Origin: a virus
Length of the DNA: 47,746 bases
Virus record (IMG/VR): IMGVR_UViG_3300015371_000067
Coordinates: 1-47,746 of that record
Direction: 5' to 3' (one strand)
Program-made: the position numbers and the translations under genes
Shown: in pieces, positions 240 through 22,202 of the stretch
Position numbering within the stretch: position 1 is the first letter of the stretch
Layout of the letters: every line of letters starts with the position of its first letter
Notes under the pieces: generated by a model
The model's input: only the letters and a program-made list of their open reading frames with translations
Database searches by the model: none
Told to the model about the DNA's origin: nothing

Positions 240-267
240 GGCTGGGCCAAGCCTATCTTTCGACGGC
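240..267 (+). repeat. Dispersed 24-bp element, copy 1 (tandem)
   Basis: This copy has the shared core GGGCC, five variable bases, then TATCTTTCGACGGC (244-267). It and copy 2 also share the upstream extension GGCTGGGCCAA, making a 28-bp tandem direct repeat with a 31-bp period. It lies in the non-coding gap between a + strand terminator and the 3' end of the - strand small-terminase gene. Function unknown; a protein-binding site is the simplest idea. Confidence 0.85.
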
Positions 268-270
268 CGT

Positions 271-298
271 GGCTGGGCCAAAGTTGTCTTTCGACGGC
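271..298 (+). repeat. Dispersed 24-bp element, copy 2 (tandem)
   Basis: Second unit of the tandem pair. The core is GGGCC (275-279), five variable bases, then TGTCTTTCGACGGC (285-298). It ends at the base before the stop codon of the - strand gene at 299. Three further copies lie at 3511, 8308 and 21875. Confidence 0.85.
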
Positions 299-805
299 TC
301 ACTCCTCCACTATCTCCGCGTCCTCGATCTGCACAGGCTCCTGAGGCCTAGGAATGCCATCAATGGCAATCACCACTGTGGGTGCAGCCTGCTCACCCTT
401 AGGATTATGGCGCCCAGTGAGCTCCAAAGCCAATCGGGCAGCGTCTACACGGCCTCTCTTGGCTGTCCTGGTCACTCCTGCAAGGATCTCTGGGATGGCC
501 ATGTCCACGCCAGTAAGGGCCGTGTTGTAGACCTCATCCCTGAACTTCTGGTTGAACTCCCAGCGCTTGAGCTTTTTCCTGGCCGACTTGAGCCTCTCTG
601 CCATCGGCCGTCCCACAGAGGTTGGTGTGAGGTGCTCTAGGAGGGCCTTAGCGAGCTGATTCCGGGTGTACCCAGAGCCATATGCCCTTGCTGCCGCCAA
701 CTGGAGCTCGCTGAGCTCTTTGGTAGGCCTAGTCCGGCCTAAAAGTGCTGCATTCATGGCTCTTTTAGCGTCAAGGTCGGGCCGTGCCACCAAGGATTCA
801 GACAT
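299..805 (-). CDS. terS: Probable terminase small subunit
   Basis: 168 residues starting at ATG 805. An N-terminal helical section (LQLAAARAYGSGYTRNQLAK, about residues 35-55) resembles a helix-turn-helix. The C-terminal half, with RDEVYNTALTGVDMAIPEIL followed by AARLALELTGRHNPKGEQ, matches the usual layout of small-terminase proteins, where a helical oligomerisation region ends in an ELTGR..PKG-like segment. The small subunit would recognise packaging sites and bring DNA to the large subunit. It is on the same strand as the late genes but is separated from the large terminase, which enters from the right edge, by + strand early genes and by sequence outside the window. No good ribosome-binding site is visible upstream of the ATG. 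It could instead be another HTH protein, but the C-terminal pattern argues for terS. Confidence 0.6.
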   Translation of the reverse strand: MSESLVARPDLDAKRAMNAALLGRTRPTKELSELQLAAARAYGSGYTRNQLAKALLEHLTPTSVGRPMAERLKSARKKLKRWEFNQKFRDEVYNTALTGVDMAIPEILAGVTRTAKRGRVDAARLALELTGRHNPKGEQAAPTVVIAIDGIPRPQEPVQIEDAEIVEE

Positions 806-950
806 GAGTCCCAGGATAACACCCGCAGCGGACAGGTGCGAAGTTGGCTGCCTATTAGGGATGCCACGTCATGATCCACCGGTATGTAAAGGGTTAGTAA
901 AACGGTGACTAGTGGATGCCTCCCAACAACACGGCTGGCAGCCATCGTGA

Positions 951-965
951 TATTATAGAACTGCA
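951..965 (+). promoter_or_regulatory. Extended -10 promoter, probably leaderless
   Basis: TGATATTAT occurs at 948-956, with TATTAT as the -10. The start codon of the next gene is only 8 nt further on at 965, so transcription should begin at or next to the ATG. The -35 region is weak. It would drive the first early + strand block. Confidence 0.55.
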
Positions 966-1204
966 TGACGCGCACGCCCGAAGAGATCCGTCGCATCCAC
1001 AACGACTTCGACCTTGCGTCCGCCGGAGGCCAAATGAAGGCCGTTGTTAGGCTCTGTGCCGAATACTCTGAGGTTGTGCACGAAGCCCTCTCGGTCGACC
1101 GTCCGCATATCGCGTGGGAAAAGCTCCATGCTGTGTGCCCACGACTCCGACCTTACATCGACGAGGCCATGACGCTCGTCCGACGCGCCAACGAAGGGAG
1201 GTGA
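965..1204 (+). CDS. Hypothetical early protein
   Basis: 79 residues from ATG 965. The protein is mostly helical and charged, with no signal peptide, membrane segment or recognised motif; two Cys (C31, C57) are far apart. It is the first gene after a -10 element placed 8 nt upstream, so it is probably translated from a leaderless mRNA; no Shine-Dalgarno sequence precedes it. Its stop is 5 nt upstream of the next start, whose ribosome-binding site GGGAGGTG lies in its last codons, so the two are an operon. Function unknown. Confidence 0.7.
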   Translation: MTRTPEEIRRIHNDFDLASAGGQMKAVVRLCAEYSEVVHEALSVDRPHIAWEKLHAVCPRLRPYIDEAMTLVRRANEGR

Positions 1205-1209
1205 CCCAC

Positions 1210-1467
1210 ATGGCAAAGGCAACCGAGAAGCCGACCTTCACGACTCCGAAGCAGCTCGCCGAGGAGCTCCAGGTCGACGCCAAGCGCATCCGCGCTTTCC
1301 TTCGCGGTACCGAGAACACGGCTCGCCCCATCGAGGCCAAGAACACCTCTTGGCAGCTCGACGAGGAGACCGCTGACCTCGTCCGCGAGCGCTTCACGCC
1401 GTCCGACGACACCGACTCCGACGAGGAGCTCGAGGAGCTCGAGGACGACGACTCCGACGAGGAGTGA
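1210..1467 (+). CDS. Acidic-tailed putative DNA-binding protein (paralogue family)
   Basis: 85 residues. ATG 1210 is chosen because GGGAGGTG precedes it at proper spacing. Residues about 9-55 contain the module LAEELQVDAKRIRAFLRG...RPIEAKNTSWQL, which is shared with the truncated protein at 1-174 and more distantly with residues about 75-120 of the protein at 4905. The last about 20 residues are almost all Asp, Glu and Ser, a tail that often controls nucleic-acid binding. It may be a small nucleoid-like or transcriptional protein, with DNA binding inferred only from the HTH-like spacing. A 69-bp gap with no obvious terminator separates it from the next gene. Confidence 0.75.
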   Translation: MAKATEKPTFTTPKQLAEELQVDAKRIRAFLRGTENTARPIEAKNTSWQLDEETADLVRERFTPSDDTDSDEELEELEDDDSDEE

Positions 1468-1535
1468 GGCGTCAGGTGGGGGGCTTGACCCCCTGCCTTG
1501 TGTCTCAGGACTCAAACCCAACCGAAAGGAGCCTG

Positions 1536-1886
1536 ATGCTCACCGACGAACAGGTCCTTGACGGCATAAGGCAGCTGACATCCCACTGCCGATTGCTCGT
1601 CGAGGGCTACGAGGCAGGTGTGAGGGAGTATACCTCCATCTCCGCCCGCGAAGGGCTGTACACCCTCGGGTTTACGGCTGACGATACCGACCAGATCATC
1701 GAGGAGATCGCCAATCGAGGCTTCAAGTACTGCCTCGACCCTCAGATCGCGGCCACCCACTTCGACCCGAACAACCCGAAGGCCGTCAACGACATGGTCA
1801 CTGACCATCCCGACGCGATGGCTTGCTACTGGGGCTGTGATCAGCTCCTGTCCCGCCTCCAGTCCCTCTACCCGTCCGTCCGATAA
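1536..1886 (+). CDS. Hypothetical early protein
   Basis: 116 residues. ATG 1536 follows GAAAGGAGCC, a good ribosome-binding site. The sequence is acidic, with ordered-looking helices and four Cys/His-containing stretches that do not form a standard zinc motif. The stop TAA overlaps the next ATG (TAATG), so translation is coupled. No family recognised. Confidence 0.75.
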   Translation: MLTDEQVLDGIRQLTSHCRLLVEGYEAGVREYTSISAREGLYTLGFTADDTDQIIEEIANRGFKYCLDPQIAATHFDPNNPKAVNDMVTDHPDAMACYWGCDQLLSRLQSLYPSVR

Positions 1887-2056
1887 TGCCGCTCATCTCC
1901 TACAAGCTCGTCCTGATCTCCCTTGACCTGCAAAGGCTGAGGGAGATCGCTCAGCGCCTTGAGGACGACAACCACACCGACGACGCTGACTTCCTGCGCC
2001 GACTCACCATGCTCGCCGAACAGATCCACTGGCGAGACGACGAGGAGCTCTCATGA
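1886..2056 (+). CDS. Small hypothetical protein
   Basis: 56 residues from ATG 1886, overlapping the previous stop as TAATG and the next start as ATGA. The peptide begins MPLISYKLVLISLDLQRLRE and is helical and charged (LEDDNHTDDADFLRRL). Overlaps at both ends and the reading frame support a real gene. Function unknown. Confidence 0.65.
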   Translation: MPLISYKLVLISLDLQRLREIAQRLEDDNHTDDADFLRRLTMLAEQIHWRDDEELS

Positions 2057-2121
2057 GCCTAATCACCATCATCTGCCTCGTCGGGCTGTTCTTCGCCCTG
2101 ACCAACCTGGAGGAAAAATGA
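2053..2121 (+). CDS. Tiny single-span membrane peptide
   Basis: 22 residues, from MSLITIICLVGLFF to EEK. About 15 hydrophobic residues form one possible membrane span with a short charged end. The start overlaps the previous stop (ATGA), and the stop overlaps the next ATG (AAATGA). A GGAGG for the following gene lies inside it, so it could be partly a coupling leader; expression is unproven. Confidence 0.45.
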   Translation: MSLITIICLVGLFFALTNLEEK

Positions 2122-2270
2122 GCCTCGAGCCCGAGAAGCTGGGCCGTATCATATGGGCTCTGATCTTTGCCGTGGGACTAATCATCCTCGCGGCTTTGTT
2201 CGGTTCGTTCGCCGTGCTACCCACAGTGCTGATCTTCGTCCTGTACTTCACCCTGACCAAGAAGGCATAA
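2118..2270 (+). CDS. Small membrane protein, two spans
   Basis: 50 residues. ATG 2118 is preceded by GGAGG at 2109-2113. Two hydrophobic segments (IIWALIFAVGLIILAALFG and VLPTVLIFVLYFTL) are separated by a short turn, with Lys at the C-terminus. It is probably an inner-membrane protein. It sits in an early block rather than beside the lysis genes, so a holin role is unlikely; superinfection exclusion is only a guess. Coupled to the next gene by TAATG. Confidence 0.65.
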   Translation: MSLEPEKLGRIIWALIFAVGLIILAALFGSFAVLPTVLIFVLYFTLTKKA

Positions 2271-2542
2271 TGGCTGACGACCGATACCCTTGGGCCAATG
2301 CACCAGACCTCGGCAACCTGCTCCACATGCTTGAGGCTTCGTGCACCGATCCAGACTGTGAGCTCCACAACATCGAGGTTGCCATCGAGGAGGAGGTCAT
2401 CTCACCCACAGACATGGCGTACTGGCTATCCGGCGTATTCGCCTTCGCCAAGCTGATCGAGCCCCACGTCGATCCCATCGAGTTCGGCACGGCAATCGCC
2501 AAGCTCACCGTAATGATCCCAACACCCGGGAGGGACCAATGA
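2270..2542 (+). CDS. Hypothetical acidic early protein
   Basis: 90 residues from ATG 2270, which overlaps the previous stop. A CTDPDCELH segment (about residues 25-33) has two Cys and a His but no second pair. The rest is acidic and helical. The end overlaps the next start in ATGATG. No family recognised. Confidence 0.7.
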   Translation: MADDRYPWANAPDLGNLLHMLEASCTDPDCELHNIEVAIEEEVISPTDMAYWLSGVFAFAKLIEPHVDPIEFGTAIAKLTVMIPTPGRDQ

Positions 2543-2796
2543 TGTCCGAGAAGCTAATGACCCAACCACGTACCAAAGCCGAAGAGGTCGTGGTCAACGA
2601 GTGCGGAGGGTTGAACACCCTCGCCCTGTCCCTGATCCTTCTCATGCGCTCAACCAACATGCCTATGTACCGTGCTGTGGGCATCGCTCGCGCCGTCAAG
2701 TTCGCTGCCGTGTATGGCAACATGCCAGCCAACGAGCTCGGCGAGATGTACCGCTCTGACCTCCGCGATATGCTCAACGAGACCGAGGGCATCTGA
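2539..2796 (+). CDS. Hypothetical early protein
   Basis: 85 residues; two ATG codons in a row (2539 and 2542) are possible starts, both overlapping or abutting the previous stop. The protein is helical with a Met-rich middle (LILLMRSTNMPMYRAVGIAR). Its stop overlaps the next ATG (TGATGA). No recognised domain. Confidence 0.7.
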   Translation: MMSEKLMTQPRTKAEEVVVNECGGLNTLALSLILLMRSTNMPMYRAVGIARAVKFAAVYGNMPANELGEMYRSDLRDMLNETEGI

Positions 2797-2978
2797 TGAA
2801 GACCCTAGATGAACTGCAAGCACGGTACGACCGGCTGATTAAGATCCGCAGCCGATGGGTAGCACGGTACGATGCTGCACCTGATGGATCCCACGACAAG
2901 CACGTGGCGATTCAGCAACTCGACGAGGTTGGTGCCCAGATCCAAAAGGTCGAAGACGAGATGGAGAAGCTGGCATGA
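2796..2978 (+). CDS. Small coiled-coil protein
   Basis: 60 residues from MKTLDELQARYDRLIK to KVEDEMEKLA. Two heptad-like helical stretches joined by a PDGSHD turn suggest a helical hairpin or coiled-coil dimer. Both ends overlap neighbouring genes by 1-4 nt. Function unknown; it may be an assembly partner of a neighbour. Confidence 0.7.
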   Translation: MKTLDELQARYDRLIKIRSRWVARYDAAPDGSHDKHVAIQQLDEVGAQIQKVEDEMEKLA

Positions 2979-3511
2979 TCCTCGACAACTCACTCGAGGC
3001 CCACGGCTACGCACGGATAATCCTCTGTGATTACCACAAGGAGTATCCCATCCCTCACCCCAAGCTCCGAGGTCACACGGTCGTGGACCTAATCTACAAC
3101 GCCGACGAGGTTCAGGAGGTACAGACCTTTCTCGGCATGCCCAAGCCTGATGAGCTTGAGCCGTTCGACGGCCTCGACATCCGCTACAACGGCTACTACG
3201 GTCCGGGCATGTCCATCTGGCTCATACAGGGCAGCCTCGAGAACCTGATCGCCATCTTCTACGACTTCGCCAGGACCCTCAAGGAAGGACCCATCGGCGG
3301 GGACGACGACTCCTACGACTATTGGCCCAACGCGATGGAGATGCTGCTCACCTTCGCTATGGACCTCGAGGAGCTGACCGACGACAAGGGCCCATGGGCC
3401 GATGAGCTCGTCACCATCATGCACCGCACCATCCACAACCGCGAGGACGATCCCGAGTGGTCTCACCTCTGGGATTCCATCAACGCCTTCGCCAACCGGG
3501 AGCAAGAATAG
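2975..3511 (+). CDS. Hypothetical early protein
   Basis: 178 residues from ATG 2975 (ATGA overlap). The protein is strongly acidic with many aromatic residues (IRYNGYYGPGMSIWLIQG near residues 69-86) and looks like a compact alpha/beta fold. No membrane segment or catalytic motif is recognised. It is the last gene of this early unit, and its stop TAG shares its final base with the start of copy 3 of the dispersed 24-bp element. Confidence 0.7.
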   Translation: MILDNSLEAHGYARIILCDYHKEYPIPHPKLRGHTVVDLIYNADEVQEVQTFLGMPKPDELEPFDGLDIRYNGYYGPGMSIWLIQGSLENLIAIFYDFARTLKEGPIGGDDDSYDYWPNAMEMLLTFAMDLEELTDDKGPWADELVTIMHRTIHNREDDPEWSHLWDSINAFANREQE

Positions 3512-3534
3512 GGCCCTATATGTCTTTCGACGGC
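3511..3534 (+). repeat. Dispersed 24-bp element, copy 3
   Basis: GGGCC, then CTATA, then TGTCTTTCGACGGC. It begins at the last base of a stop codon and ends 18 bp upstream of the TTGACA of the strongest promoter in the window (3553-3582). That placement fits an operator or activator site. Confidence 0.85.
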
Positions 3535-3552
3535 AAAGCCCTAGTAGCAAAG

Positions 3553-3582
3553 TTGACAGAGAGTACCTCCCCAGTGTATAAT
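3553..3582 (+). promoter_or_regulatory. Consensus sigma-70-type promoter
   Basis: A perfect TTGACA (3553-3558), an 18-bp spacer and a perfect TATAAT (3577-3582, preceded by GTG). This is the best housekeeping promoter in the window and should drive the second early block from 3631. Copy 3 of the dispersed element lies just upstream. Confidence 0.85.
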
Positions 3583-3630
3583 GGGGTAATGACGCAATCG
3601 ACGGGACCGTGAGAGGAGGTGAGACCAACA

Positions 3631-3834
3631 ATGACCTTCGAGGAAGCGAAGAGAATCCATCGCCGTGAGGTTCGCGAGATAGCTCAGGGTAGGCATTACC
3701 GGGGCAAGTCAGCAAAGGCGATGGGCATGCCGTACCTCGACGAAGTAATCGAGGCCGAAGACGTACTGTCCGCACACTGGGACCCAACAACCATGTCGTG
3801 GAAGCGCACGACGGAGGAGACGAAGGCATCATGA
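3631..3834 (+). CDS. Hypothetical early protein
   Basis: 67 residues. ATG 3631 is preferred; AGGAGGTGAG lies 11 nt upstream. A GTG at 3619 overlaps that ribosome-binding site and is less likely. The protein is basic at the N-terminus (RIHRREVREIAQGRHYRGK) and acidic in the middle. First gene after the consensus promoter. Function unknown. Confidence 0.65.
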   Translation: MTFEEAKRIHRREVREIAQGRHYRGKSAKAMGMPYLDEVIEAEDVLSAHWDPTTMSWKRTTEETKAS

Positions 3835-4025
3835 AGGTAGTTCTTGTGTACCGCCCCGAGCTGATCGACGACACCGACGGTGACGTTCAGCCCTTCGAGG
3901 GCATCGAGATCCTCGGAGTCGCCTCCAACGAGGACGACGCCAACGAGCTGATCGACAAGGTCCGCGACGAGCACATGGCAGACCCGCCTGCGAAACCGTG
4001 GTCGTTCCACATCGACTCCGTCTAG
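3831..4025 (+). CDS. Hypothetical small protein
   Basis: 64 residues from MKVVLVYRPELIDDTDG, with ATG 3831 overlapping the previous stop (ATGA). Alternating hydrophobic strands and an acidic helix (ASNEDDANELIDKVRDE) suggest a small alpha/beta fold. No recognised family. Confidence 0.7.
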   Translation: MKVVLVYRPELIDDTDGDVQPFEGIEILGVASNEDDANELIDKVRDEHMADPPAKPWSFHIDSV

Positions 4026-4026
4026 C

Positions 4027-4197
4027 ATGAAGCCCACCACCCGTCAATCGGCAACAGCTCCCTGGAGGTGCCCCAATTGTGGGGCGCTTCCGGGCAGCAA
4101 GTGCCTTACCAATACCTGGCGCCGCAGACCGAAAACCCAATTCCTCGGGAAGATGCACATCGCCAGATGGAATGCGAGGCCCACAGATGATGCGTAG
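4027..4197 (+). CDS. Small zinc-finger protein
   Basis: 56 residues from ATG 4027, one base after the previous stop. It contains WRCPNCGALPGSKC (residues 13-26), followed after about 20 residues by MHIARW, giving a C-x2-C-x7-C...H arrangement. This is the short zinc-binding motif seen in many actinophage proteins, where C..C.A..G..C is followed by H..R. A role in nucleic-acid binding is inferred. Confidence 0.7.
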   Translation: MKPTTRQSATAPWRCPNCGALPGSKCLTNTWRRRPKTQFLGKMHIARWNARPTDDA

Positions 4198-4240
4198 AGT
4201 GACCCTACCACCAATGCGCGAGACCGCGCTAGGAGAGATC

Positions 4241-4582
4241 ATGTCCGAGGTACCAGGGGCGACAACGCCCAACAGATGGCCTGAATCGCTAAAGGCCGTC
4301 GAGAACGAGGAGCCTGACCCACAGAAGGTGTTCGCTTGCCCTGACTGCGACAGGACCTTCCGTAACGCTCAGGGACTGGGGGCACACCGATCCCGCACAC
4401 ACGGCTACCGCAAGGCAGGGCCTGCTTACCAGGCTGCACCTGCACCCACTACTACGGTCGAAGCCACCATCGCGGCGATCTTCCCCCAGGGCATTCCTGT
4501 CAACCGCGAGGTGCTGGCCGCAGTGCTCAACTTCATGGAGGCACACGACCATCTCGTCGAGATGTCCCGCAATGGCAGTTGA
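4241..4582 (+). CDS. C2H2 zinc finger protein
   Basis: 113 residues. ATG 4241 is preceded by AGGAGAG; an in-frame ATG at 4187 is possible but lacks a better site. Residues about 31-53 form a classic C2H2 finger: CPDCDRTF (C-x2-C and the aromatic), RNAQGLGAH (the Leu and first His), then RSRTH with H-x4-H spacing. Such fingers are typical of eukaryotic regulators but are also known singly in bacterial and phage proteins. The C-terminal helix resembles an oligomerisation segment. Likely a DNA-binding regulator; target unknown. It overlaps the next gene by 11 bp. Confidence 0.8.
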   Translation: MSEVPGATTPNRWPESLKAVENEEPDPQKVFACPDCDRTFRNAQGLGAHRSRTHGYRKAGPAYQAAPAPTTTVEATIAAIFPQGIPVNREVLAAVLNFMEAHDHLVEMSRNGS

Positions 4583-4784
4583 GAACGAGCTTGTGACCCA
4601 CAGCTCCAGCTGTGTGTTCTGCGGCAAGGAGCACTTGACTACGGTCGACAAGGTCAAGTACCAGCGCTGGCTCGGTGGCGAACGCATCCAGCTCGTATGG
4701 CCCGAGATGAGCGACGACGACCGAGAGATCCTCATCTCCGGGACGTGTCCCGACTGCTGGTCAAACTACATGGGCGAGGTGTGA
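4572..4784 (+). CDS. Zinc-ribbon hypothetical protein
   Basis: 70 residues from ATG 4572, inside the end of the previous gene. Two CxxC pairs, CVFC (about residues 14-17) and CPDC (about 59-62), should bind one zinc across a 40-residue insertion. Small proteins of this type are common in actinophages but have no known role. It ends about 25 bp before the next promoter. Confidence 0.75.
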   Translation: MAVENELVTHSSSCVFCGKEHLTTVDKVKYQRWLGGERIQLVWPEMSDDDREILISGTCPDCWSNYMGEV

Positions 4785-4809
4785 CCCACAGAAGGTGTGA
4801 GGGCAGCGG

Positions 4810-4838
4810 TTGACCCCGAGCACCAACTATGATACAAT
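4810..4838 (+). promoter_or_regulatory. Promoter with extended -10
   Basis: TTGACC (4810-4815), a 17-bp spacer and TATGATACAAT ending at 4838. The leader to the next ATG is about 60 nt and contains GAAGGAGGC. It drives the third early unit. The TATGATACAAT form recurs at several other promoters in the window. Confidence 0.8.
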
Positions 4839-4904
4839 GAGTCTTGTCAGCGAAACACTCACCCACGCTGACGCCCAACCCCATCCGGGTGAGAAGGAGG
4901 CAAT

Positions 4905-5465
4905 ATGGCCCGCAAGAAGGCAGTCGAAGTCGAGGTCGAGGAGGACGAGGTCGACGAGCTCGACGAGCTGGACGATCTGGAGGACCTCGCAGACGAGGCA
5001 GAGGACGAGGACGAGGACGTCGAGGACGAAGACGAGGACGACGAGGAGGAGACCCCTCGCCGCTCGAAGAAGTCCAAGGCGGGCAAGGCGAAGGCGGGGA
5101 AGTCGAAGAAGCCCGCGAAGGAAGGCATCGGGTCCTCAGACCTCGCCGAAGCACTCGGCACCACCGGGCGTGAGCTGCGCGTCATGCTCCGCCAGAAGAA
5201 GGTCAAGAAGAACGAGAACAACCGCTACGAGTGGGATTCGGTCGACGATGCACTCGAGGCACTCGGCTTCGACGACCTGGACGACGCGAAGGAAGCTCTC
5301 GCTGAGTCACGCACCCAGCGCCTCGAGGAGCTGAAGGAGCGCGTCGGTGCGAAGGACAAGAAGTCCAAGAAGTCGAAGGCCGCCGTCGAGGAGGACGAAG
5401 ACGACGAGGCCGACGACGACGAGGACGAGGCTCCGCCGAAGAGGACCAGGCGCAAGAAGAAGTAG
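4905..5465 (+). CDS. Highly charged DNA-binding-like protein
   Basis: 186 residues; ATG 4905 follows AAGGAGGC. The N-terminus (residues 5-50) is nearly all Asp, Glu and Val, followed by a Lys-rich linker. A folded core at about 75-120 (DLAEALGTTGRELRVMLR, then NENNRYEW) matches the module of the proteins at 1-174 and 1210-1467. The tail is again acidic and then ends in RTRRKKK. Alternating acidic and basic runs around a small HTH-like module suggest a nucleoid-like or histone-mimic protein. This is inference; no family was matched. Its low-complexity DNA creates long false frames on both strands. Confidence 0.75.
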   Translation: MARKKAVEVEVEEDEVDELDELDDLEDLADEAEDEDEDVEDEDEDDEEETPRRSKKSKAGKAKAGKSKKPAKEGIGSSDLAEALGTTGRELRVMLRQKKVKKNENNRYEWDSVDDALEALGFDDLDDAKEALAESRTQRLEELKERVGAKDKKSKKSKAAVEEDEDDEADDDEDEAPPKRTRRKKK

Positions 5466-5545
5466 CGCCGTCCTCCGACGTGGTGGGCAGGGGAGTCGTC
5501 TGTGTTGGGCAGGCGGCTCCCCATTACTTTGAGAGGAGGAGTACC

Positions 5546-6628: not shown

Positions 6629-6672
6629 TATACCTATATGACAACCCAAAGGGTTGTTATCATATAGGTATA
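6629..6672. repeat. AT-rich 44-bp inverted repeat
   Basis: The outer arms TATACCTATATG (6629-6640) and CATATAGGTATA (6661-6672) are perfect 12-bp complements. Inside, ACAACCC and GGGTTGT pair around an AAA loop, leaving a 3-nt TAT bulge on the right. It sits in the only long gap (6591-6730) of the primase-helicase operon, in a strikingly AT-rich patch of a GC-rich genome. There is no T tract, so it is not a standard terminator. It could be a replication origin element, an operator, or an mRNA processing or attenuation structure. Confidence 0.85.
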
Positions 6673-6730: not shown

Positions 6731-7210
6731 TTACGGTGCGAGTAGTTCTTTGAAGAACCGCTTGTACTCCAGACGCTGCTTGCGCTTCTTTGCCCTCCTT
6801 CGTTTGGCAGCCTTGCGACGCATCGCCAATTCCCGCTGGTAAGGGCTTTGCTGTTCAGCCACCCAGACGCGGCCTTTGTAATATCTCTTCTTGCCTGAGA
6901 CGTACATCGGCTCCTTCCAGACCCCGAGCTTAATGAGGTCTGTGGGTGTGAACCACAACCACTCTGACAGGGAGCCCATATCAGCACCTATGATGATCCT
7001 GTCCATCAGGCTCATCGAGACGCAGGTCGTCTCCCGATTCCGCAGGCGTCGCATGACTCGCAGCTTGATCCCGCCTCGCTCACAGATCAATCGCCATGTC
7101 CCTACTTCGGTGTGCGCCTGTTCGAGGAACGAAATGAGCTCGTCTGTAACGGGCGTGAAGAGCTCTGAGCTTAACGGGTGTGTACGAGTCGGGTCGTTCA
7201 GTCGCGTCAA
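6731..7210 (-). CDS. HTH-like basic protein
   Basis: 159 residues. TTG 7210 is chosen because AAGGAGG precedes it at 4 nt spacing. The middle (ICERGGIKLRVMRRLRN, then VSMSLMDRIIIGADMG, about residues 43-80) resembles a helix-turn-helix arrangement found in actinophage proteins of unknown role. The C-terminus is strongly basic (RRKAAKRRRAKKRKQR). Likely nucleic-acid binding. It lies 13 nt downstream of the primase-helicase gene, so the two are co-transcribed. Confidence 0.65.
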   Translation of the reverse strand: MTRLNDPTRTHPLSSELFTPVTDELISFLEQAHTEVGTWRLICERGGIKLRVMRRLRNRETTCVSMSLMDRIIIGADMGSLSEWLWFTPTDLIKLGVWKEPMYVSGKKRYYKGRVWVAEQQSPYQRELAMRRKAAKRRRAKKRKQRLEYKRFFKELLAP

Positions 7211-7223
7211 CTTTCCTCCTTCC

Positions 7224-9197
7224 CTAAGTCGCGTACAGTTTGTGGGAATAACCGCGCCCCTTGCGTCCAGACTCTATCCTCACTCGATGGTGCTCATCGC
7301 CGCGGATGCGGCTAATCAGGGTCCGCTTGTCCATCTCGAGTTCGGCTGCGAGGGTGTTCACGGTAATGCCTGGCTCGGCACGAACGCGAGCTACGATCAG
7401 GCCTGCCAGGTCAAAGGTGGTGACATTGGCCTTCATCTCGAGGGTACCTGGCTCACCCATCGAGATGTCGATTTCCACCGGCCTCTGTGGGGCCATGCTG
7501 CGGAACTCACGCTCAACTAGGATCGACTTCCATCCCCGCTTGTCTATTTCACGGTCGGTCAGGTAGAGTGCGGAGTCGACCCAGCCGTGTAGAATTGCAC
7601 TGCCGAGTAGGTTCTGCCCTGCACGTGCCTGGACTTGCGCATTTAGGTTCCGTTTCCGCATGTGATGGACTAATACAACCGAACAGCCGAACTCCATTCG
7701 TAGTCTCAACAACCACTTGAGGAAAGGTCGGAGATGGACTACACGGTCACTGTCTGCGTCGCCGAGGATGAGGTAGAGGGGATCGAGGATCACGAGTTTC
7801 GGGCGGAACTCTTCGCAGGCCTTCCAAAGGCCGTCGGTGTGTTCGTCTTCCGCGAGGTCGAAGCCGTGGTTGTTCAGAATGCGGAGGGGTATGTCATCTG
7901 GAAAGTCCAGGCCTACTACGACCGAGCCCTTACGGGCTAGATCTCCCGAAGCTCTGGCTCTCACGTGCGCCTCACTCTTGCGGATCAGGCCTGCATGCCA
8001 TGCCAGTTTCCTCAGTCGATCCTGTACCATCCACGGGGCGTTCTCTTCCTGCACGAACAATACAGGCCCCGGTGACGGCACAGAGTACTTCCCCAAGAAC
8101 GGCTTGCCGGAAGCAACCGACAATGCCAGGGCCATAGCGACGGTCGTCTTCGCGGTCTTCGGCTCCCCACCAATGATCCCGTGCGAATCGGCAGCCCAGA
8201 TGTCCTCCACCAGCCATTTCGGTTCCTCCATCACCTGAGACATAACGGAGGCGTAGCTCATGAAAGGCAGGCCACCCTCCTTGGGCAGTTCTGGCTTGGC
8301 CTTAGTCGGGCCCTCTATATCTTTCGACGGCTTCCGCAGTGCGACCTGTCGGCCGACGTGCTTGATCGCCTTCCGTATCTCCCGTTCCAGCCGTGACCGA
8401 CCTGAGTGCACAGCCCGCCACTTATTCCAGGCCGTGTTCCAGACCAGCTCGTAGATTTCATCTACGCCCAACCCTGCTTCGGCTAGCAGACACTCGAGCT
8501 CCCACAGACGAGACGAACGCTCGCCCGCTACCACATCTTCGGACTTGGCCCTCAGTAGTACCTTGGCCCGACCCGAGATGCCTTTCTTCGGGATGACCAC
8601 CGAGACTGCAGCCTTGAACTCGTCGGGCGGCAACGCAGCCTTAAGCTTGGCCCACATCGAGTGCGGGTCGTACACGAGCTCGGGCTTGTACCACATGAGC
8701 TCTACCATCGGCGCGTCGGCGTACTTGAAGTTTCGAGTGCCAGGAAGCCTTAGAACTTGCGTAAGATCCCACCCACCCCTATCAGCATCGAGCGCATACG
8801 AGAGGGCTCGGTTCAGCTTCTCTAGAGATTTCGGCGGGAGTTCCTTCTGCAGGCGCCACAGTGCTTGGTAGCGGCCGGGCGATGACTGAATGGCCACTGT
8901 GGGCAGGTAACCAAGCTTCGCCGCATCTGTGGGGTGTACTTCGTCGAGGTCGGCCCACAGCCAGGATGAGCCCTGTACGTCCTCAATTCGCCTCCCCTTC
9001 TTCTGGAATTGTGCTACGGAGTAGTACAGGTCCTCACGGTCACGCAGGCAGGTGTCGATCCTGCGGGTAATCACTCCATCGCCTGGCCATTCCGTCGAGA
9101 ACTCTACCCAGTACTTGCCGACCTTCGCGGGGAGCCCTACCCAGCCTGGCCGTTCGCCGTACACGATCTCCAGGAAATCCTCGGCCTCTAACTCCAT
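7224..9197 (-). CDS. Primase-helicase: AEP primase fused to RepA-like ATPase
   Basis: 657 residues. ATG 9197 is chosen because AAAGGAGGC lies just upstream; a longer frame to 9266 would cross the promoter. The N-terminal half is an archaeo-eukaryotic primase of the RepB type: WLWADLDEV (catalytic D83 and D85), SSPGRYQALWRL, and DLTQVLRLPGTRNFK. The C-terminal half is a RecA-fold hexameric helicase related to RepA: Walker A GGEPKTAKT, Walker B KLVILDPLYLI, then VVLVHHMRK, with GQNLLGSAILHGWVDS downstream. The last about 60 residues look like a winged helix (ITVNTLAAELEMDKRTLISR). It should unwind and prime phage DNA in the cytoplasm. Copy 4 of the dispersed element lies inside its coding sequence. 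Confidence 0.9.
   Translation of the reverse strand: MELEAEDFLEIVYGERPGWVGLPAKVGKYWVEFSTEWPGDGVITRRIDTCLRDREDLYYSVAQFQKKGRRIEDVQGSSWLWADLDEVHPTDAAKLGYLPTVAIQSSPGRYQALWRLQKELPPKSLEKLNRALSYALDADRGGWDLTQVLRLPGTRNFKYADAPMVELMWYKPELVYDPHSMWAKLKAALPPDEFKAAVSVVIPKKGISGRAKVLLRAKSEDVVAGERSSRLWELECLLAEAGLGVDEIYELVWNTAWNKWRAVHSGRSRLEREIRKAIKHVGRQVALRKPSKDIEGPTKAKPELPKEGGLPFMSYASVMSQVMEEPKWLVEDIWAADSHGIIGGEPKTAKTTVAMALALSVASGKPFLGKYSVPSPGPVLFVQEENAPWMVQDRLRKLAWHAGLIRKSEAHVRARASGDLARKGSVVVGLDFPDDIPLRILNNHGFDLAEDEHTDGLWKACEEFRPKLVILDPLYLILGDADSDRVVHLRPFLKWLLRLRMEFGCSVVLVHHMRKRNLNAQVQARAGQNLLGSAILHGWVDSALYLTDREIDKRGWKSILVEREFRSMAPQRPVEIDISMGEPGTLEMKANVTTFDLAGLIVARVRAEPGITVNTLAAELEMDKRTLISRIRGDEHHRVRIESGRKGRGYSHKLYAT
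8308..8331 (+). repeat. Dispersed 24-bp element, copy 4 (inside primase-helicase gene)
   Basis: GGGCC, CTCTA, then TATCTTTCGACGGC on the + strand. On the coding (-) strand it is read as KPSKDIEGP, in the linker between the primase and ATPase halves. Conservation of the exact 14-bp core within coding sequence implies selection on the DNA itself. Confidence 0.85.
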
Positions 9198-9228
9198 TCC
9201 GCCTCCTTTCGTCGGTGTGGTAACATCC

Positions 9229-9257
9229 ATTGTATCATCCAGGAGAACGGCCTGCAA
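9229..9257 (-). promoter_or_regulatory. Leftward promoter of the primase operon
   Basis: On the - strand, TGATACAAT (with the -10 TACAAT at 9234-9229) is preceded after 17 bp by TTGCAG (9257-9252). The expected start is about 25 nt before the ATG at 9197, leaving room for the AAAGGAGGC ribosome-binding site. It is divergent from the + promoter at 9289. Confidence 0.65.
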
Positions 9258-9288
9258 GTATGCCACTGTATGGTTACCGTTGGCAGAC

Positions 9289-16491: not shown

Positions 16492-18904
16492 CCACGACTG
16501 CACACGTTGCGAGCTCCACGAGTACACGGATCGTGTCTGTGTGATGGGCCGGGGTGACCCGGCTGGCCGTCTTATGCTGATAGGGGAGGCACCGGGCGCT
16601 AATGAAGAGGAAACAGGGAAAGTATTTAGTGGTCGAGCGGGGCAACTTCTCGACCGAAAGCTTCGAGATGCTGGCCTTGAGCCAGATCTATGCTACATTA
16701 CTAACGTGGTCAAGTGCCGACCTCCGAATAATCGTACGCCAGAGCGAGACGAGTGGGAGTCCTGCCGTCTCTATCTGGAACGAGAAGTCGAAGCAGTTGA
16801 CCCAACTCACGTTCTCCTCCTGGGAAACGTTGCTCTCCGAACTGTTGCGAGAACTTCAGGAATCACCAAGCCTGACAAGCGCGGAGTACAGCTCAGCGTC
16901 AAAGACCCTGTCTTTGCCAAAAGGTTCGTCATGGCTACGATTCATCCTGCATACGTTCTCCGAAACCCCGGACAAGATACAGTTTTCTCCGAAGATATTA
17001 GACGTTTTGCCCGTGCTACTCGAGGCGAGCTGCAAGCTGTCGCGGTCCGCCGAAAGCTGGTTACCACAGGTCGAGGACTCCGAGCTCTGATCAATGCCAT
17101 CAACAAGCTACCCTCAGGTACGGTCGTCGCTTACGACGTGGAGAATCGGTACTCTCCATGGCATAAGGACTGGTCGATCCAGGTACTGGGGGTAAGCTGG
17201 GATGGTGAAACCGCATACGTTGTTCCCCTCTACCACCCAGAGTCACCGTTCAAGAAGAAGTGGAAGCAGGTTCTACTCCATCTGAAGGCAGCCCTTGAGC
17301 GTGACGACCTGAAGCTGGTGGGGCAGAACGCCAAGCACGACAATGTCCAACTCGCAGGAGGCCGAGTATTCCTAGAGCACAGCTTCGATATCATGTTGGC
17401 CGCTCACGTCGTAGACGAGAACAGACCGAAGAACCTTGGGTACCTCAGCCAAGCATACCTCGGCGCGGACAACTACAAGGGGCTGGACCTGAAGCCCGAG
17501 AAGATCCTGAAAATACCACTGCGAGAGCTGTCGATCTACAATGGCGCGGACGTCGGGTACACCCACCAACTACGGCCGAAGTTGCTCGACGAGTTGAAGG
17601 CCAACCCCCGATCCCTGCGCCTCTTCGCGAAGCTCTTGATGCCTGCCTCCCACGTCATCCAGCAGGTCGAGATGAAGGGCATGTGGGTCGACCGTGACAA
17701 ACTGTGGGACAGAATAGGCGAGCTCCAGGGTCACATCACCAAGCGCACGGACCTGATGAAGGAGCACATGCCAGCTCGATGGCGTGACGACTTCAACTTC
17801 AACAGCACTCAGCAGGTAGCCAAGTGGCTGTACTCACCACCGAAGAAGGGTGGGCTTGGGCTAGACATTGTCCAGTTCACGAAGTCCGGCAATCCCAGCA
17901 CCAACGAGGACTCGGTCATCGAGTACATCGACCACCCGGTAGTCAAGGCACTGCTCGAGTACCGCACCCTCCAGCTCAAGTGGATGAACACGTACCTCGC
18001 TGCGTGGGCTACGAAGCTGGACCTGAACAGCAGGATGCACACCACCTACAAACTGTACGGTGCGGTGACTGGTAGGCTGTCAGGTGACCTGCAACAGGTC
18101 CCACGTGATACCTTCGTGCGATCTGTGATCGGTGCCCCACAGGGTTGGAGGTTCGTCAGCGCAGACTACTCCCAGATCGAGTTGAGGATCGCAGCCCACG
18201 TGTCAGGTGAGCGACGTATGCGGCGAGCGTACATCCTCGGAGAGGATCTTCATCTGCTCACTGCGTCGATGGTCACGGGCAAGCACCCCAGCGAGATTGG
18301 CAAGGAGGAACGTAAGCAGGCGAAGGCCGTCAACTTCGGTTTCCTCTACGGCATGTACCCCAAGAAGTTCCAGAACTATGCAGCGAAGAGCTATCAGATT
18401 GCCGTGTCGTTGGGCGAGGCTGAGTTGTTCCGCGCCAAGTACTTCGAGTTGTACCCCGATCTGCTCAAGTGGCACGAGCGAGTCAAGCGCAGGGTGAATG
18501 AGGTGCAGTATGTAACCTCACCCCTCGGACGCACACGGCATCTGCCGGACGTGCTTTCAGGTGACCGCTCGGTGCGCATGGAGGCTGAGCGTCAGGCGAT
18601 CAACTCACCCGTGCAGGGCTGCGCGTCGGACATGATGCTCTTCACGATGGTAAAGCTGCAACCGCACATGAACCCACATGAGGCTGCGATGGTCATGACG
18701 AACCACGACCAGATCGGCTTCGAGATTAGAGAGGATAAGGTGGACTACTACATGCCAATCATCAAGGAGGTGATGGAGAATCTCCCACTCAAGAAGACGT
18801 TCGGCCTCGACTTCTCCGTACCTGTCGTGGCTGACGTTGAAGAGGGACAGTACTGGCAGGGCATCGACGACGCTGCTGGCCTGGGCTTCACTGGGTACTC
18901 CTGA
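16463..18904 (+). CDS. polA: Uracil-DNA glycosylase (family 4) fused to family-A DNA polymerase
   Basis: 813 residues; ATG 16463 follows GAGGA. Residues 1-190 are a family-4 UDG: iron-sulfur ligands C13, C16, C85 and C101, motif GEAPG (41-45), NVVKCRPPNNRTP, and IHPAYVLRNPG. Residues about 210-390 form a 3'-5' exonuclease with DVEN, GQNAKHD and YNGAD carrying the four acidic residues. The polymerase has motif A SADYSQIELR, motif B RKQAKAVNFGFLYG (Lys, Phe and Tyr conserved) and motif C NHDQIGFE, where the usual HDE reads HDQ. The enzyme replicates phage DNA while its N-terminus can remove uracil. A UDG-like region is also known in the SPO1 polymerase, from memory. Confidence 0.92.
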   Translation: MTSLLDHLANHDCTRCELHEYTDRVCVMGRGDPAGRLMLIGEAPGANEEETGKVFSGRAGQLLDRKLRDAGLEPDLCYITNVVKCRPPNNRTPERDEWESCRLYLEREVEAVDPTHVLLLGNVALRTVARTSGITKPDKRGVQLSVKDPVFAKRFVMATIHPAYVLRNPGQDTVFSEDIRRFARATRGELQAVAVRRKLVTTGRGLRALINAINKLPSGTVVAYDVENRYSPWHKDWSIQVLGVSWDGETAYVVPLYHPESPFKKKWKQVLLHLKAALERDDLKLVGQNAKHDNVQLAGGRVFLEHSFDIMLAAHVVDENRPKNLGYLSQAYLGADNYKGLDLKPEKILKIPLRELSIYNGADVGYTHQLRPKLLDELKANPRSLRLFAKLLMPASHVIQQVEMKGMWVDRDKLWDRIGELQGHITKRTDLMKEHMPARWRDDFNFNSTQQVAKWLYSPPKKGGLGLDIVQFTKSGNPSTNEDSVIEYIDHPVVKALLEYRTLQLKWMNTYLAAWATKLDLNSRMHTTYKLYGAVTGRLSGDLQQVPRDTFVRSVIGAPQGWRFVSADYSQIELRIAAHVSGERRMRRAYILGEDLHLLTASMVTGKHPSEIGKEERKQAKAVNFGFLYGMYPKKFQNYAAKSYQIAVSLGEAELFRAKYFELYPDLLKWHERVKRRVNEVQYVTSPLGRTRHLPDVLSGDRSVRMEAERQAINSPVQGCASDMMLFTMVKLQPHMNPHEAAMVMTNHDQIGFEIREDKVDYYMPIIKEVMENLPLKKTFGLDFSVPVVADVEEGQYWQGIDDAAGLGFTGYS

Positions 18905-18910
18905 GCATGA

Positions 18911-18924
18911 TACAATGAACGGTA
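18911..18924 (+). promoter_or_regulatory. Extended -10 promoter, leaderless
   Basis: CATGATACAAT ends at 18916, and ATG 18924 follows after 7 nt, so the transcript should start at the initiation codon. TTCACT 18 bp upstream is a fair -35. Confidence 0.6.
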
Positions 18925-19037
18925 TGGGGAGAGTCACTGCGAGGGATGTGCTGGGTTGCCTAGTCGCGCTGGGAATACTGGCAGTGATCTGGGGGTTCGT
19001 AGGCCTCATAGTGTGGGTGCTGCTATGGCTGTCATAA
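18924..19037 (+). CDS. Small single-span membrane protein
   Basis: 37 residues from ATG 18924, seven bases after a -10 element. After MGRVTARDVLG, the rest is almost wholly hydrophobic (LVALGILAVIWGFVGLIVWV). One membrane span, N-terminus probably inside. It overlaps the nuclease gene by 13 bp. Its place in the recombination genes gives no clue to function. Confidence 0.6.
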   Translation: MGRVTARDVLGCLVALGILAVIWGFVGLIVWVLLWLS

Positions 19038-20146
19038 ACTACAATCAGTCCCGAGTCAAGCAGTTCCGTCGTTGCCAGAAGCAGTACAGTTTCAGGTACG
19101 ACTACGCTGCTCGGTACGGTGGTCGTCCGCGACAGGAGATGGTGCCTCGTAGGAAGAAGCTCCCTCTCTATCGTGGGTCGTGGATGCACGCACTCCAGCA
19201 AGCACTGCACTACCAGTGGGCAGGGGTGCCCGAGTTCTCTATCAAGTTCGGGCCCAACACCTACGACGTGTCCTCCTGGAAGGAACTGCAGGAAGACCTG
19301 GCAGCTGAGTTTGAGGCCCTCTTCGACGAGGAGAAGGAAGACCTAGGAGACCTGGACGACGAGTGCGAGAGGTTGTTCAAGTCATACCTCAGGTTCTGGA
19401 AGAACGACCGCGACCGCTACAACGTGGTCATCATAGACAAGAAGCCAGTGATCGAGCAGATCATCAGCGCTGACATACCCGGTCTTCGGGGTGCACGGTT
19501 CAAGGGCATGATCGACCTGCTCGTCGAGGACCTAGAGTACGGTGGGTTATGGATCTGGGATGCGAAGTGGGTCCGGCAGATCCCAGCACCCGACGAGCGA
19601 ATGATGTCCCCACAGGCCCTGATGTATGTGTGGGCCCTGCGACGCAAGGGGCTTGACATTCGTGGCTTCGTCTTCAACTACGGTCGAACGAAAGCTCCAA
19701 CGATACCGTACACCCTCCAGCGTAACAGCTCACGAGGGCCAGCCGGCTCAGTCACGCGGCGCAAGAAGTTGGACACGGACCTCTACACTTACCTGCAAGC
19801 TATCAAGGAGGCACACGGCGACGAATGGAAGTTGTGGGTCGACTTCTACCGTGAGAAGATCGACGATCTGAAGGGTCGCGAGCAGTTGTGGTTCCGTCGT
19901 GAGAGGATTCCCGTCGAGGATTCCCGCATCGACCGGGGGCTGAAGGAGTACATCTCGACCATCCAAGACATACAGAGCAGGTCGAAGGTGCCGCCGAGGT
20001 CCTACTTCTACAACTGCAAGTTCAGCTGTGACTACCACGACCTCTGCTGTGCAGAGTTCCAAGGGCTGGACGTGACCCCACTCATCCAAGCTAACTACGA
20101 GTTTGAAGGCGAGAGGTATGGCAAAGAGGACCTCCTCGACGCGTAG
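19025..20146 (+). CDS. PD-(D/E)XK nuclease, RecB/Cas4-like
   Basis: 373 residues. ATG 19025 lies inside the previous gene. The catalytic core is seen as WMHALQQALHYQ (early His), FKGMIDLLVED (Asp) and GLWIWDAKWV (D-x-K), followed by a Gln/Tyr helix (PQALMYVWALR). Near the C-terminus CKFSCDYHDLCC supplies Cys that, with an upstream Cys, could hold an iron-sulfur cluster as in Cas4/AddB-type nucleases. It should process DNA ends during recombination. It is followed by the RecA-like ATPase with a 29-bp overlap. Confidence 0.82.
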   Translation: MAVINYNQSRVKQFRRCQKQYSFRYDYAARYGGRPRQEMVPRRKKLPLYRGSWMHALQQALHYQWAGVPEFSIKFGPNTYDVSSWKELQEDLAAEFEALFDEEKEDLGDLDDECERLFKSYLRFWKNDRDRYNVVIIDKKPVIEQIISADIPGLRGARFKGMIDLLVEDLEYGGLWIWDAKWVRQIPAPDERMMSPQALMYVWALRRKGLDIRGFVFNYGRTKAPTIPYTLQRNSSRGPAGSVTRRKKLDTDLYTYLQAIKEAHGDEWKLWVDFYREKIDDLKGREQLWFRRERIPVEDSRIDRGLKEYISTIQDIQSRSKVPPRSYFYNCKFSCDYHDLCCAEFQGLDVTPLIQANYEFEGERYGKEDLLDA

Positions 20147-20954
20147 GTCTACAACTGCTAGGCCCGCGTCGCAGTCGGAGATCAACAAGCGGGTAGAAGC
20201 CCGCATCAAAAACGCCAGCGAGTTCGAGGACTGGGAGCGCATCCTGATCTACGGGCGATCTGGTGCAGGCAAGACACGACTCGCTGCCACAGCTCCTGAT
20301 GTACTGCTGATGGACATTGACGAGAAGGGGACGAAGTCTACCAAGAAGGATATCGACCCGAAGGCCATCCGCATCGCGAGCATCGACGAGTTCGTGGAGA
20401 CGTACTGGTACCTGCAATCAGGACAGCACCCGTACAGGTCTGTCGCTGTGGACGGGTGTACTGGGCTACAGACCATGTTCCTCAACTTCGTGCTAGGCGA
20501 GGCAGCAACGCTCGATGCTAGCCGTGATCCTGACATGCCATCGAGGCAGATTTACGGTAAGGTGTCCAAGCTCATGAAGAACTGGATCACCAACTACCGT
20601 AACCTGGACATGCATGTAGTCTTCACGGCACTCACCCGCGTCAACCGCGAGGGTGGTGGCGAGGAGGAAGACGAGGATCTTGGGGCCGTCACTGTGGGGC
20701 CTGCTGTATCACCTGCCATCGGCGGACATCTCGAGGCGGCGTGTGATACAATAGGCTATCTGCACACACGCCAGGTGGTCGTCAGAAAGGGGGATAAGAG
20801 GAGGAAGGTGACACGCCGCCGTCTACTCACGGGGCCGAACGAACGGTACGACACGAAGGACCGTAACAATGCCTTCGGGGCATGGGTAGATGCGCCCGAT
20901 ATCAGCAAGATGATAGATACCATCAACGGAGTGAGTCAGGAGGAGGCGACGTAG
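20118..20954 (+). CDS. RecA-like phage ATPase (AAA_24 type)
   Basis: 278 residues. ATG 20118 is preferred over an upstream in-frame ATG since GCGAGAGG precedes it. A basic, Ser/Thr-rich N-terminus leads to Walker A IYGRSGAGKTRLA (about residues 39-51), Walker B-like SVAVDGCTGLQ, and MHVVFTALTRV. This is the phage nucleotide-binding family usually found beside DUF669 and RecB-like genes, as here. It probably acts in annealing or recombination. A TGTGATACAAT at 20742-20752 lies inside it and might give internal transcription. Confidence 0.82.
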   Translation: MAKRTSSTRRSTTARPASQSEINKRVEARIKNASEFEDWERILIYGRSGAGKTRLAATAPDVLLMDIDEKGTKSTKKDIDPKAIRIASIDEFVETYWYLQSGQHPYRSVAVDGCTGLQTMFLNFVLGEAATLDASRDPDMPSRQIYGKVSKLMKNWITNYRNLDMHVVFTALTRVNREGGGEEEDEDLGAVTVGPAVSPAIGGHLEAACDTIGYLHTRQVVVRKGDKRRKVTRRRLLTGPNERYDTKDRNNAFGAWVDAPDISKMIDTINGVSQEEAT

Positions 20955-21466
20955 TGGCGAAGAAGATGAAGATCGACTTCGGTGGAGTCGACAAGGAGAT
21001 CCGTCGCGGAGGCGGACGGGTGCGAGTGCCCGAGGGTGATTACATCCTCAAGATCGTCGACTGCACCGAGGAGACAGGCGAGAGGTCCGGGGCGAAGTAC
21101 CTGCGCTGGACGTTTCAGATCCACGAGGGTGAGCACAAGGGGAAGAAGCTGAGGATGAACACCTCGCTCAAGCCCGATGCTCTGTGGAATCTGAGGAACC
21201 TGATCCATGCTGCGCTCGGCAAGAACGTCGCTGGGAAGGCGGTCAACTTCGACCCCGAAACACTGTACGGTAAGGTCGTGGGAGGAGCCGTCGAGGACAA
21301 TGAGTTCAACGACCGCATCACCTCTCAGGTTGCCTCGGTCTTCCCGCGTGACGAGGCCAACCCCGTCGAGTCCGACGACTCCGAGGAAGAGGAGGAGGAA
21401 GACGAAGACGAGGAGGAAGAAGAAGACGACGAGGACCTCGAGGACGTGGATGTCGAAGACCTCTAG
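20954..21466 (+). CDS. Probable single-stranded DNA-binding protein (DUF669-like)
   Basis: 170 residues; GTG 20954 shares a base with the previous stop and follows AGGAGGCGAC. Residues 20-130 match the DUF669 layout: VPEGDYILKIVDCTEETGE, KYLRWTFQIHEGEHKGKKL, then a helix and a conserved VGGAVEDNEFNDR end, consistent with an OB fold. The last 40 residues are nearly all Asp and Glu, like the tails by which SSB proteins recruit partners. It should coat single-stranded DNA for replication and recombination. Strong hairpins follow its stop codon. Confidence 0.75.
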   Translation: MAKKMKIDFGGVDKEIRRGGGRVRVPEGDYILKIVDCTEETGERSGAKYLRWTFQIHEGEHKGKKLRMNTSLKPDALWNLRNLIHAALGKNVAGKAVNFDPETLYGKVVGGAVEDNEFNDRITSQVASVFPRDEANPVESDDSEEEEEEDEDEEEEEDDEDLEDVDVEDL

Positions 21467-21470
21467 GATC

Positions 21471-21548
21471 GAGCGGGCTGTCGCCTCTTAGTGCCCGCTC
21501 GTAGGGGACTCCCTGCCTGCTATCTCCCCCTGCGGGTGGGGGGTCCCC
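21471..21548 (+). terminator. Hairpin cluster ending the replication operon
   Basis: There are two structures. GAGCGGGC (21471-21478) pairs perfectly with GCCCGCTC (21493-21500). A second has outer arms GGGGAC (21504-21509) and GTCCCC (21543-21548) and an inner CCCCC/GGGGG hairpin (21526-21542). No T tract follows, so it is a probable but non-standard terminator. It lies directly before a leaderless promoter. Confidence 0.6.
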
Positions 21549-21552
21549 GTCT

Positions 21553-21570
21553 TATGGTACAATCCCTCGA
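21553..21570 (+). promoter_or_regulatory. Extended -10 promoter, leaderless
   Basis: TATGGTACAAT ends at 21563 and ATG 21570 follows after 6 nt, the spacing expected if transcription starts on the initiation codon. No -35 is visible; the upstream bases are in the GC hairpin. Confidence 0.6.
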
Positions 21571-21863
21571 TGCAACCTGAAAGGAAACTAGTCCAAAAGA
21601 TCCAGCGATACCTGGAGGCTCAAGGAGCGCGAAGCTTCAAGATCCACGGGGACGACTCCTATCAGGAAGCTGGCATACCCGACCTTCTTGTCTGCTACAG
21701 GGGTCGGTTTATTGGGCTAGAAGTCAAGCTACCAGGCGGGAAGCCTTCCCTCATTCAAGAGGTGGTGCTCTCAGATATCAAACGGTCCGGAGGGATAGCC
21801 GCGGTCGTTGAGTCTGTGGATCAGGTACGCCAACTTCTAGCGAAACTGGAGAGGAAGAGGTGA
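21570..21863 (+). CDS. VRR-NUC nuclease
   Basis: 97 residues, starting at a probably leaderless ATG. The VRR-NUC core is complete: an N-terminal Glu-containing helix (ERKLVQKIQRYLE), AGIPDLLVCYRG (catalytic Asp), GLEVKLPGGKPSLIQ (E-x-K and the Gln), and a final helix. These small nucleases cut branched DNA and may resolve recombination or replication junctions before packaging. It has its own promoter after a hairpin cluster, so it is expressed separately from the replication operon. Confidence 0.88.
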   Translation: MQPERKLVQKIQRYLEAQGARSFKIHGDDSYQEAGIPDLLVCYRGRFIGLEVKLPGGKPSLIQEVVLSDIKRSGGIAAVVESVDQVRQLLAKLERKR

Positions 21864-21866
21864 TGG

Positions 21867-22202
21867 ATGCGGTTTGGCCCTCTATGTCTTGCGACGGCTC
21901 TCGTCCTAGTGATGCTAGCCTTCGCACCAACAGCAGAGGCAGGGTACAAAGAACGTAACTCCGCAGTAATCTGTAAGGTGTTCGGCCCGCACTGTCAGCA
22001 AGCGATCCGCGTTGCTCGATGTGAATCCGGCTTGACCATCGGAGCGACGAACGGTCAGTACCTCGGACTGTTCCAGATGGGCTACTATGCCCGATCAAAG
22101 TACGGTCATGGCTGGAACCCATGGGTCCAGGCCCGTGCAGCATACCGTTACTTCGTCGACTCAGGTAGAGATTGGTCACCTTGGTCTTGCAAACCTTGGT
22201 GA
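21867..22202 (+). CDS. Secreted lysozyme-like transglycosylase (endolysin candidate)
   Basis: 111 residues from ATG 21867. Residues 1-25 are a Sec signal peptide (MRFG, then LATALVLVMLAFAPTAEA). The mature part has RVARCESGLTIGA with the catalytic-type Glu, NGQYLGLFQMG, QARAAYRYF and WSPWSCKPW, the pattern of short SLT/Rpf-like lysozymes. Cys pairs suggest a disulfide outside the cell. It probably cleaves the glycan strands of peptidoglycan. Since it carries its own signal peptide it could be exported without a holin. The first codons carry copy 5 of the dispersed 24-bp element. Confidence 0.82.
   Translation: MRFGPLCLATALVLVMLAFAPTAEAGYKERNSAVICKVFGPHCQQAIRVARCESGLTIGATNGQYLGLFQMGYYARSKYGHGWNPWVQARAAYRYFVDSGRDWSPWSCKPW
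21875..21898 (+). repeat. Dispersed 24-bp element, copy 5 (inside lysozyme gene start)
   Basis: TGGCC, CTCTA, then TGTCTTGCGACGGC. It differs from the others at one core base (CTTG for CTTT) and at the first base. It encodes part of the signal peptide and lies 9 bp inside the gene, where a bound protein could block transcription or translation. Confidence 0.75.

Follow-up and report, generated by a model that had tools for sequence, protein, structure and literature searches.

What reads a 24-bp element that recurs five times, always on the same strand, in the DNA of an uncultured soil virus? The stretch analyzed, called here the window (W), is the whole 47,746 nt of IMG/VR record IMGVR_UViG_3300015371_000067, and its genes include PolA, an exonuclease, Sak4, a primase/helicase, a portal and a terminase. 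Our preferred answer, offered tentatively, is that the five copies are directional DNA sites for a phage DNA-binding protein that co-evolves with them, and that they act as a roadblock or insulator at the ends of rightward operons.

An initial annotation had reported the five copies, and all were recovered, on the + strand and with the consensus given there. Copies 1 and 2 (244–267 and 275–298) are tandem units in the gap between the terminator of a small winged helix-turn-helix (wHTH) gene and the 3′ end of a leftward gene for a small-terminase-like (TerS-like) protein, whose stop codon copy 2 abuts; relatives carry lineage-specific sites at the syntenic place. Copy 3 (3511–3534) comes directly after the final stop codon of a rightward operon and ends 18 nt before the −35 hexamer of a perfect sigma70-type promoter (TTGACA-N18-TATAAT, 3553–3582, +), in keeping with the report of a copy just upstream of the best promoter. 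The two copies said to lie within genes do so: copy 4 (8308–8331) is antisense within the primase/helicase gene (7224–9266, −; domains RepB_primase and AAA_25), in its hypervariable inter-domain linker, and copy 5 (21875–21898), the TCTTGCGACGGC variant, occupies signal-peptide codons of a gene for a small secreted lysozyme-like protein (21867–22202, +; weak SLT_3 match). No copy is found in the late − operon, again as first described. The 14-nt core is conserved, though not exactly as had been claimed, since its position 2 is A or G and its position 7 is T or G.

The pattern GGCCNNNNNTNTCTTNCGACGGC at up to three mismatches has six matches in the window, the five perfect copies and one three-mismatch background match, where 0.59 are expected and the maximum in 100 dinucleotide shuffles was three; the shuffled-genome control proposed for the element is therefore exceeded. 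A tighter IUPAC pattern gives five matches at each of 0, 1, 2 and 3 mismatches. Synonymous-codon shuffles kept the 14-nt core of copy 4 or of copy 5 in about 1% of trials each, so that the encoded protein does not explain these two copies.

The first 12 kb of the window has no match to a cultured phage at the DNA level, and the nearest portals are those of actinobacterial phages, at about 25–30% identity. Searches with the portal, polymerase and TerS-like proteins yielded syntenic uncultured relatives, all metagenomic contigs and several of them incomplete; the 1786-aa late protein and the primase, used as queries against viral contigs, yielded none. The exact window motif is absent from other viruses, two unrelated matches being the yield of the viral scan. 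In the closest relative (L008) the place matching copy 5 keeps 15 of the 16 specified bases, the sole near-match among the relatives, which may partly reflect the conserved peptide GPLCLAT. The expectation that related phages would keep the copies thus failed for the window sequence itself and held for its places, where each lineage has its own version.

In every relative the gap corresponding to that of copies 1 and 2 holds elements beginning with GGCC or a close variant, and these are of two types. The near-universal type A, GGCC(A/T)TATAGC(C/T), has 28 intergenic copies on the + strand and three on the − strand when one mismatch is allowed; the protein encoded by the TerS-like gene may account for the copies that lie within that gene. 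Type A or a close variant occurs in G002, G014, G019, G020, G021, G022, G023, G010 and L100, usually just before a type B site; at one mismatch or fewer, no copy was found on the right strand of the window. Each lineage has its own type B, which recurs within a genome, as in GGCCNACTGACTGAGAACCCAC, RGCYCTRWATCTGGTCCGARTC, GGCCCNNNNGTCTGTTAGANGGCC and AGCCCTNNGTCTGAGCGGAGTCT; when aligned, these sites consist of GGCC, a spacer of 5, 6 or 7 nt according to lineage, TCT (or ACT or CCT) and a lineage-specific tail. Scans of one clade with the type B motif of another gave almost no matches. The five copies in the window are its type B element.

A catalogue was built with motifs derived from the TerS region, with thresholds set two or more above the averaged maxima of Markov-resampled genomes and with genes called by a simple caller. 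It holds 42 sites in 12 genomes. All 42 sites are on the early (+) strand and none on the other. The relatives carry two to seven each, compared with five in the window, although some contigs are incomplete. The window contig itself breaks (positions 1 and 47,746) between the terminase large gene and the small wHTH gene, a place where G002 carries about 3 kb, so that the window probably misses one or more further copies.

In 11 of the 12 genomes a site lies 17–77 nt from the stop codon of the TerS-like gene; the twelfth, G022, has a weaker one, and G002 has one as well. On the left, further sites occur at 380–530 nt, ahead of the small wHTH gene; on the right, they occur at about 1 kb and, ahead of promoters as with copy 3, at 2.2–3.4 kb. 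Distal sites lie at +2 to +21 kb and in the primase gene. Counterparts of copy 3 precede TTGACA-like promoters in G006, G009 and G023, and at copy 3, G006 12049 and G023 23955 the site is the sole recognizable element between stop codon and promoter. The primase linkers of W, G014 and G016 are variable, and each holds the motif of its own lineage, always antisense to the gene. Two clade-type sites (G009 44530 and G016 9917) fall in a thymidylate-synthase-like gene, where the codons read (H/L)LSENP and protein conservation may explain them. Two catalogue labels need care: copy 5 was called intergenic by the simple gene caller, and one genic site in G021 is at threshold.

Placement follows a simple rule. 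Twenty-four of the 25 occupied gaps follow a + gene, of 119 gaps of that kind, and the remaining one is among the 59 gaps behind a − gene (Fisher p = 4e-4); it lies in G019, behind a probable + terminator, and probably stems from an error in gene calling. None of the 32 divergent (−/+) gaps is occupied, though these too precede rightward units. The sites therefore mark where rightward units end, and not promoters in themselves. No RNA or DNA fold is conserved across lineages, folding energies being equal to those of shuffles (z near 0); a GNRA mini-hairpin that the window copies could form did not hold across lineages. The lack of a conserved fold together with the restriction to one strand points to directional recognition of double-stranded DNA, and sites that differ between lineages yet agree within a genome point to a reader that co-evolves with them. 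That a protein reads the DNA, as first proposed, is thus well supported by syntenic placement, lineage-specific sequence, uniform orientation and the absence of RNA structure.

We envisage that a phage-encoded DNA-binding protein would read the double-stranded sites, its specificity changing between lineages along with them. Once bound, it would impede rightward RNA polymerase as a polar roadblock or insulator, much as at stoperators, and so would close each rightward unit before the next promoter; the same block could also act before the oppositely oriented TerS-like gene and within the leftward primase gene. We infer this polar role from placement, by its fit with the cluster A stoperators (PMC6550527, PMC9283540), which are characterized as lineage-specific asymmetric sites that stop elongation.

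Stoperators had been named among the closest analogues of the element. Those of cluster A (L5, Bxb1, TipsytheTRex) are likewise short asymmetric sites, in one orientation and mostly intergenic, with a lineage-specific cognate consensus at syntenic places, and their reader, a two-domain monomer (PMC6550527, PMC9283540), would suit a bipartite site. However, they number about 20–30 per genome, follow local transcription in orientation, and belong to temperate phages with an immunity repressor; the elements described here number two to seven, run antisense to the primase gene in three lineages (W, G014 and G016), and are bipartite, with a spacer varying between lineages. Neither integrase, serine recombinase nor ParA (PF00589, PF00239, PF13614) was matched in 11 genomes, some of them incomplete; the proteins scanned gave no repressor match. 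The stoperator is thus the right functional analogue, and membership in that class fails on the antisense primase copies, the low copy number and the lack of integrase, serine recombinase and ParA. The other analogue proposed, an anti-terminator (nut) site, would be transcribed from an upstream promoter and form a conserved RNA hairpin; it does not suit elements that follow terminators, precede promoters and do not fold.

Other phage repeats are more distant. The 13-bp repeats of cluster CA Rhodococcus phages are also asymmetric, intergenic and mainly in one orientation, in genomes of similar size and GC content (PMC5721134), but differ in sequence, reach 20 copies and belong to cluster A-like temperate phages. 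The 17-bp repeats of cluster O (Corndog) likewise occur in intergenic and coding copies, in phages that lack integrase and parAB (PMC4351075), but are palindromic and unoriented, with 34 copies. Cluster K start-associated sequences are repeated intergenic phage elements too, but are tied to translation starts, whereas the occupied gaps here follow gene ends. Small wHTH proteins such as BldC and Xis, which are MerR-like, occupy asymmetric sites in tandem, in head-to-tail fashion (PMC5859096), and the small wHTH proteins of the window resemble them in fold; here, however, the helix that would contact DNA hardly varies, unlike the sites, and binding of these sites by such proteins is conjectural. 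Cultured distant relatives (Jasmine, Shocker, DS1 and ctEqG8) were considered and carry other repeats instead; Microbacterium phage Shocker (L076) has CCTTTACAGG 23 times, on both strands, which is a different repeat system. A host origin of the motif was also rejected: 257 Gb of sequence gave 11 stretches, the matches in bacterial genomes being single and scattered and looking like chance, with no sign of a multi-copy host motif, and the two stretches in one metagenome-assembled genome are near-identical copies of one gene.

Several observations sit poorly with a roadblock at operon ends. No known end of a rightward unit lies near the copies in the primase gene, copy 5 stands where a + gene starts rather than where it ends, and the crowding of sites around the TerS-like gene exceeds what a general role at operon ends would require. 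An ordinary hairpin terminator precedes many of the copies, which makes a second stop look redundant. No regulator stands out as the reader, motif distance tracking the general phylogeny. Seeding of motifs from the TerS region makes part of the syntenic placement true by construction, from which the orientation and primase results are exempt, and the gene calling was simple.

Clustering at the TerS-like gene makes packaging the strongest rival, followed by recombination boundaries. If the sites initiate packaging, the TerS-like protein would bind the tandem sites beside its own gene, as at pac or cosB, and the distant copies would be secondary or vestigial. We rate this as rather unlikely. Site clusters flank the gene in all lineages, often as two clusters 400–500 nt apart, and the sites take their orientation from the genome as a whole rather than from local genes. 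Small terminases, which are helix-turn-helix (HTH) proteins, recognize pac sites (PMC4737164), and repeated sites beside the gene are what marks a pac or cosB locus, if the gene encodes a true TerS; that identity is itself weakly supported, some members of the family having weak HTH/Terminase_5 Pfam matches. The sites are, however, not confined to the packaging locus, conserved distant ones lying before early promoters and in primase linkers, and divergence of the TerS-like protein ranks low among the correlates of motif divergence (rho 0.62, vs. 0.88 for the large terminase).

The elements might instead be recombination boundaries, repeats flanking small wHTH cassettes (promoter, gene and terminator) that homologous or site-specific recombination would move, homogenizing the repeat within a genome. 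In most relatives elements do flank the small MerR/Xis-like genes (in L100 twice in tandem), and in cluster O the Xis-like Corndog gene 14 is flanked by a 17-bp direct repeat (PMC4351075). Copies in primase linkers, in a signal peptide and beside unrelated promoters would be left unexplained, and repeats of 14–24 nt could hardly be homogenized across 20 kb by homologous recombination when their flanks share no wider similarity. Neither a tyrosine nor a serine recombinase was found in the genomes scanned, and we think this explanation improbable.

Operators or activator sites for early promoters are a slightly poorer prospect. Copy 3 and its counterparts do lie 11–67 nt upstream of −35 hexamers, but the 32 divergent gaps, which likewise lie ahead of rightward units, are empty, and the most constant site has no downstream promoter. 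Poorer again, and quite unlikely in our estimate, is a role in replication, with the elements as strand-specific primase loading sites or as polar fork-arrest sites of the Tus/Ter kind. Orientation relative to the genome, the copies in the primase gene and the RepB_primase domain of its product would agree with this; the RSF1010 relative in the RepB_primase family uses strand-specific initiation sites. Against it, no hairpin is conserved, and the strong preference for 3′ ends of + genes is not expected. Chance or codon-usage coincidence, which the two coding copies among the five might suggest, is practically refuted by the shuffle, Markov-resampled and synonymous-shuffle controls and by the parallel sites in relatives.

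If a phage protein reads the sites, the window encodes several candidates. Most genomes have two or three small wHTH proteins (MerR/HTH_17/IF2_N-like) next to sites. The window has two genes of this MerR/Xis-like family: the 3′ part of one, cut by the contig end (1–174, +), whose unit ends at copies 1 and 2, and a second (1210–1467, +; IF2_N Pfam match), a candidate DNA binder; a larger acidic/basic conserved protein (4905–5465) has a segment similar to the family. The core of the small wHTH proteins, PKxLRxxLR...KNTSW, is near invariant, which fits type A better than the variable type B. Other candidate readers are the putative TerS-like HTH protein (299–805, −), conserved in relatives and with the site cluster at its 3′ end, and a divergent protein that looks HTH-like by eye (6731–7210, −), which adjoins the primase, is conserved in most relatives and has no Pfam or PHROG match. 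Structure models gave no useful match for the TerS-like protein, the model being poor, and only non-significant MerR/Xis/IF2 matches for the small wHTH protein.

Just ahead of copies 1 and 2 lies an intrinsic terminator-like hairpin, read from the sequence (GCCCCC-GAAA-GGGGGC-TTTT, 196–215, +), whose four T residues fall below the limit of the scanner. To the left of the primase block, the noncoding gap between two leftward genes holds an AT-rich near-perfect inverted repeat (TATACCTATATGACAACCC-AAA-GGGTTGTTATCATATAGGTATA, 6629–6672, −24 kcal/mol) that could be a terminator or an origin element. A 225-nt segment occurs in three diverged copies (67–70% identity) in successive late genes (33733–35452), probably duplicated structural genes. 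Scans for tRNA and Rfam elements found none.

A broader proposal, which we hold as more doubtful than the operon-end reading, is that apparently non-integrating phages use a polar barrier of site and reader outside lysogenic immunity, with polarity fixed to the genome, a near-universal GGCC head joined to a lineage-specific tail, and the whole set of sites rewritten along with the reader. Lineage-specific one-way sites have so far been tied to temperate-phage immunity, where escape from resident repressors explains the change in specificity. The same pattern without sign of integration would need another cause, for instance evasion of a host factor or of related phages that co-infect the cell. 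With known placement, the 42 sites in 12 genomes make the reader easy to seek by pull-down.

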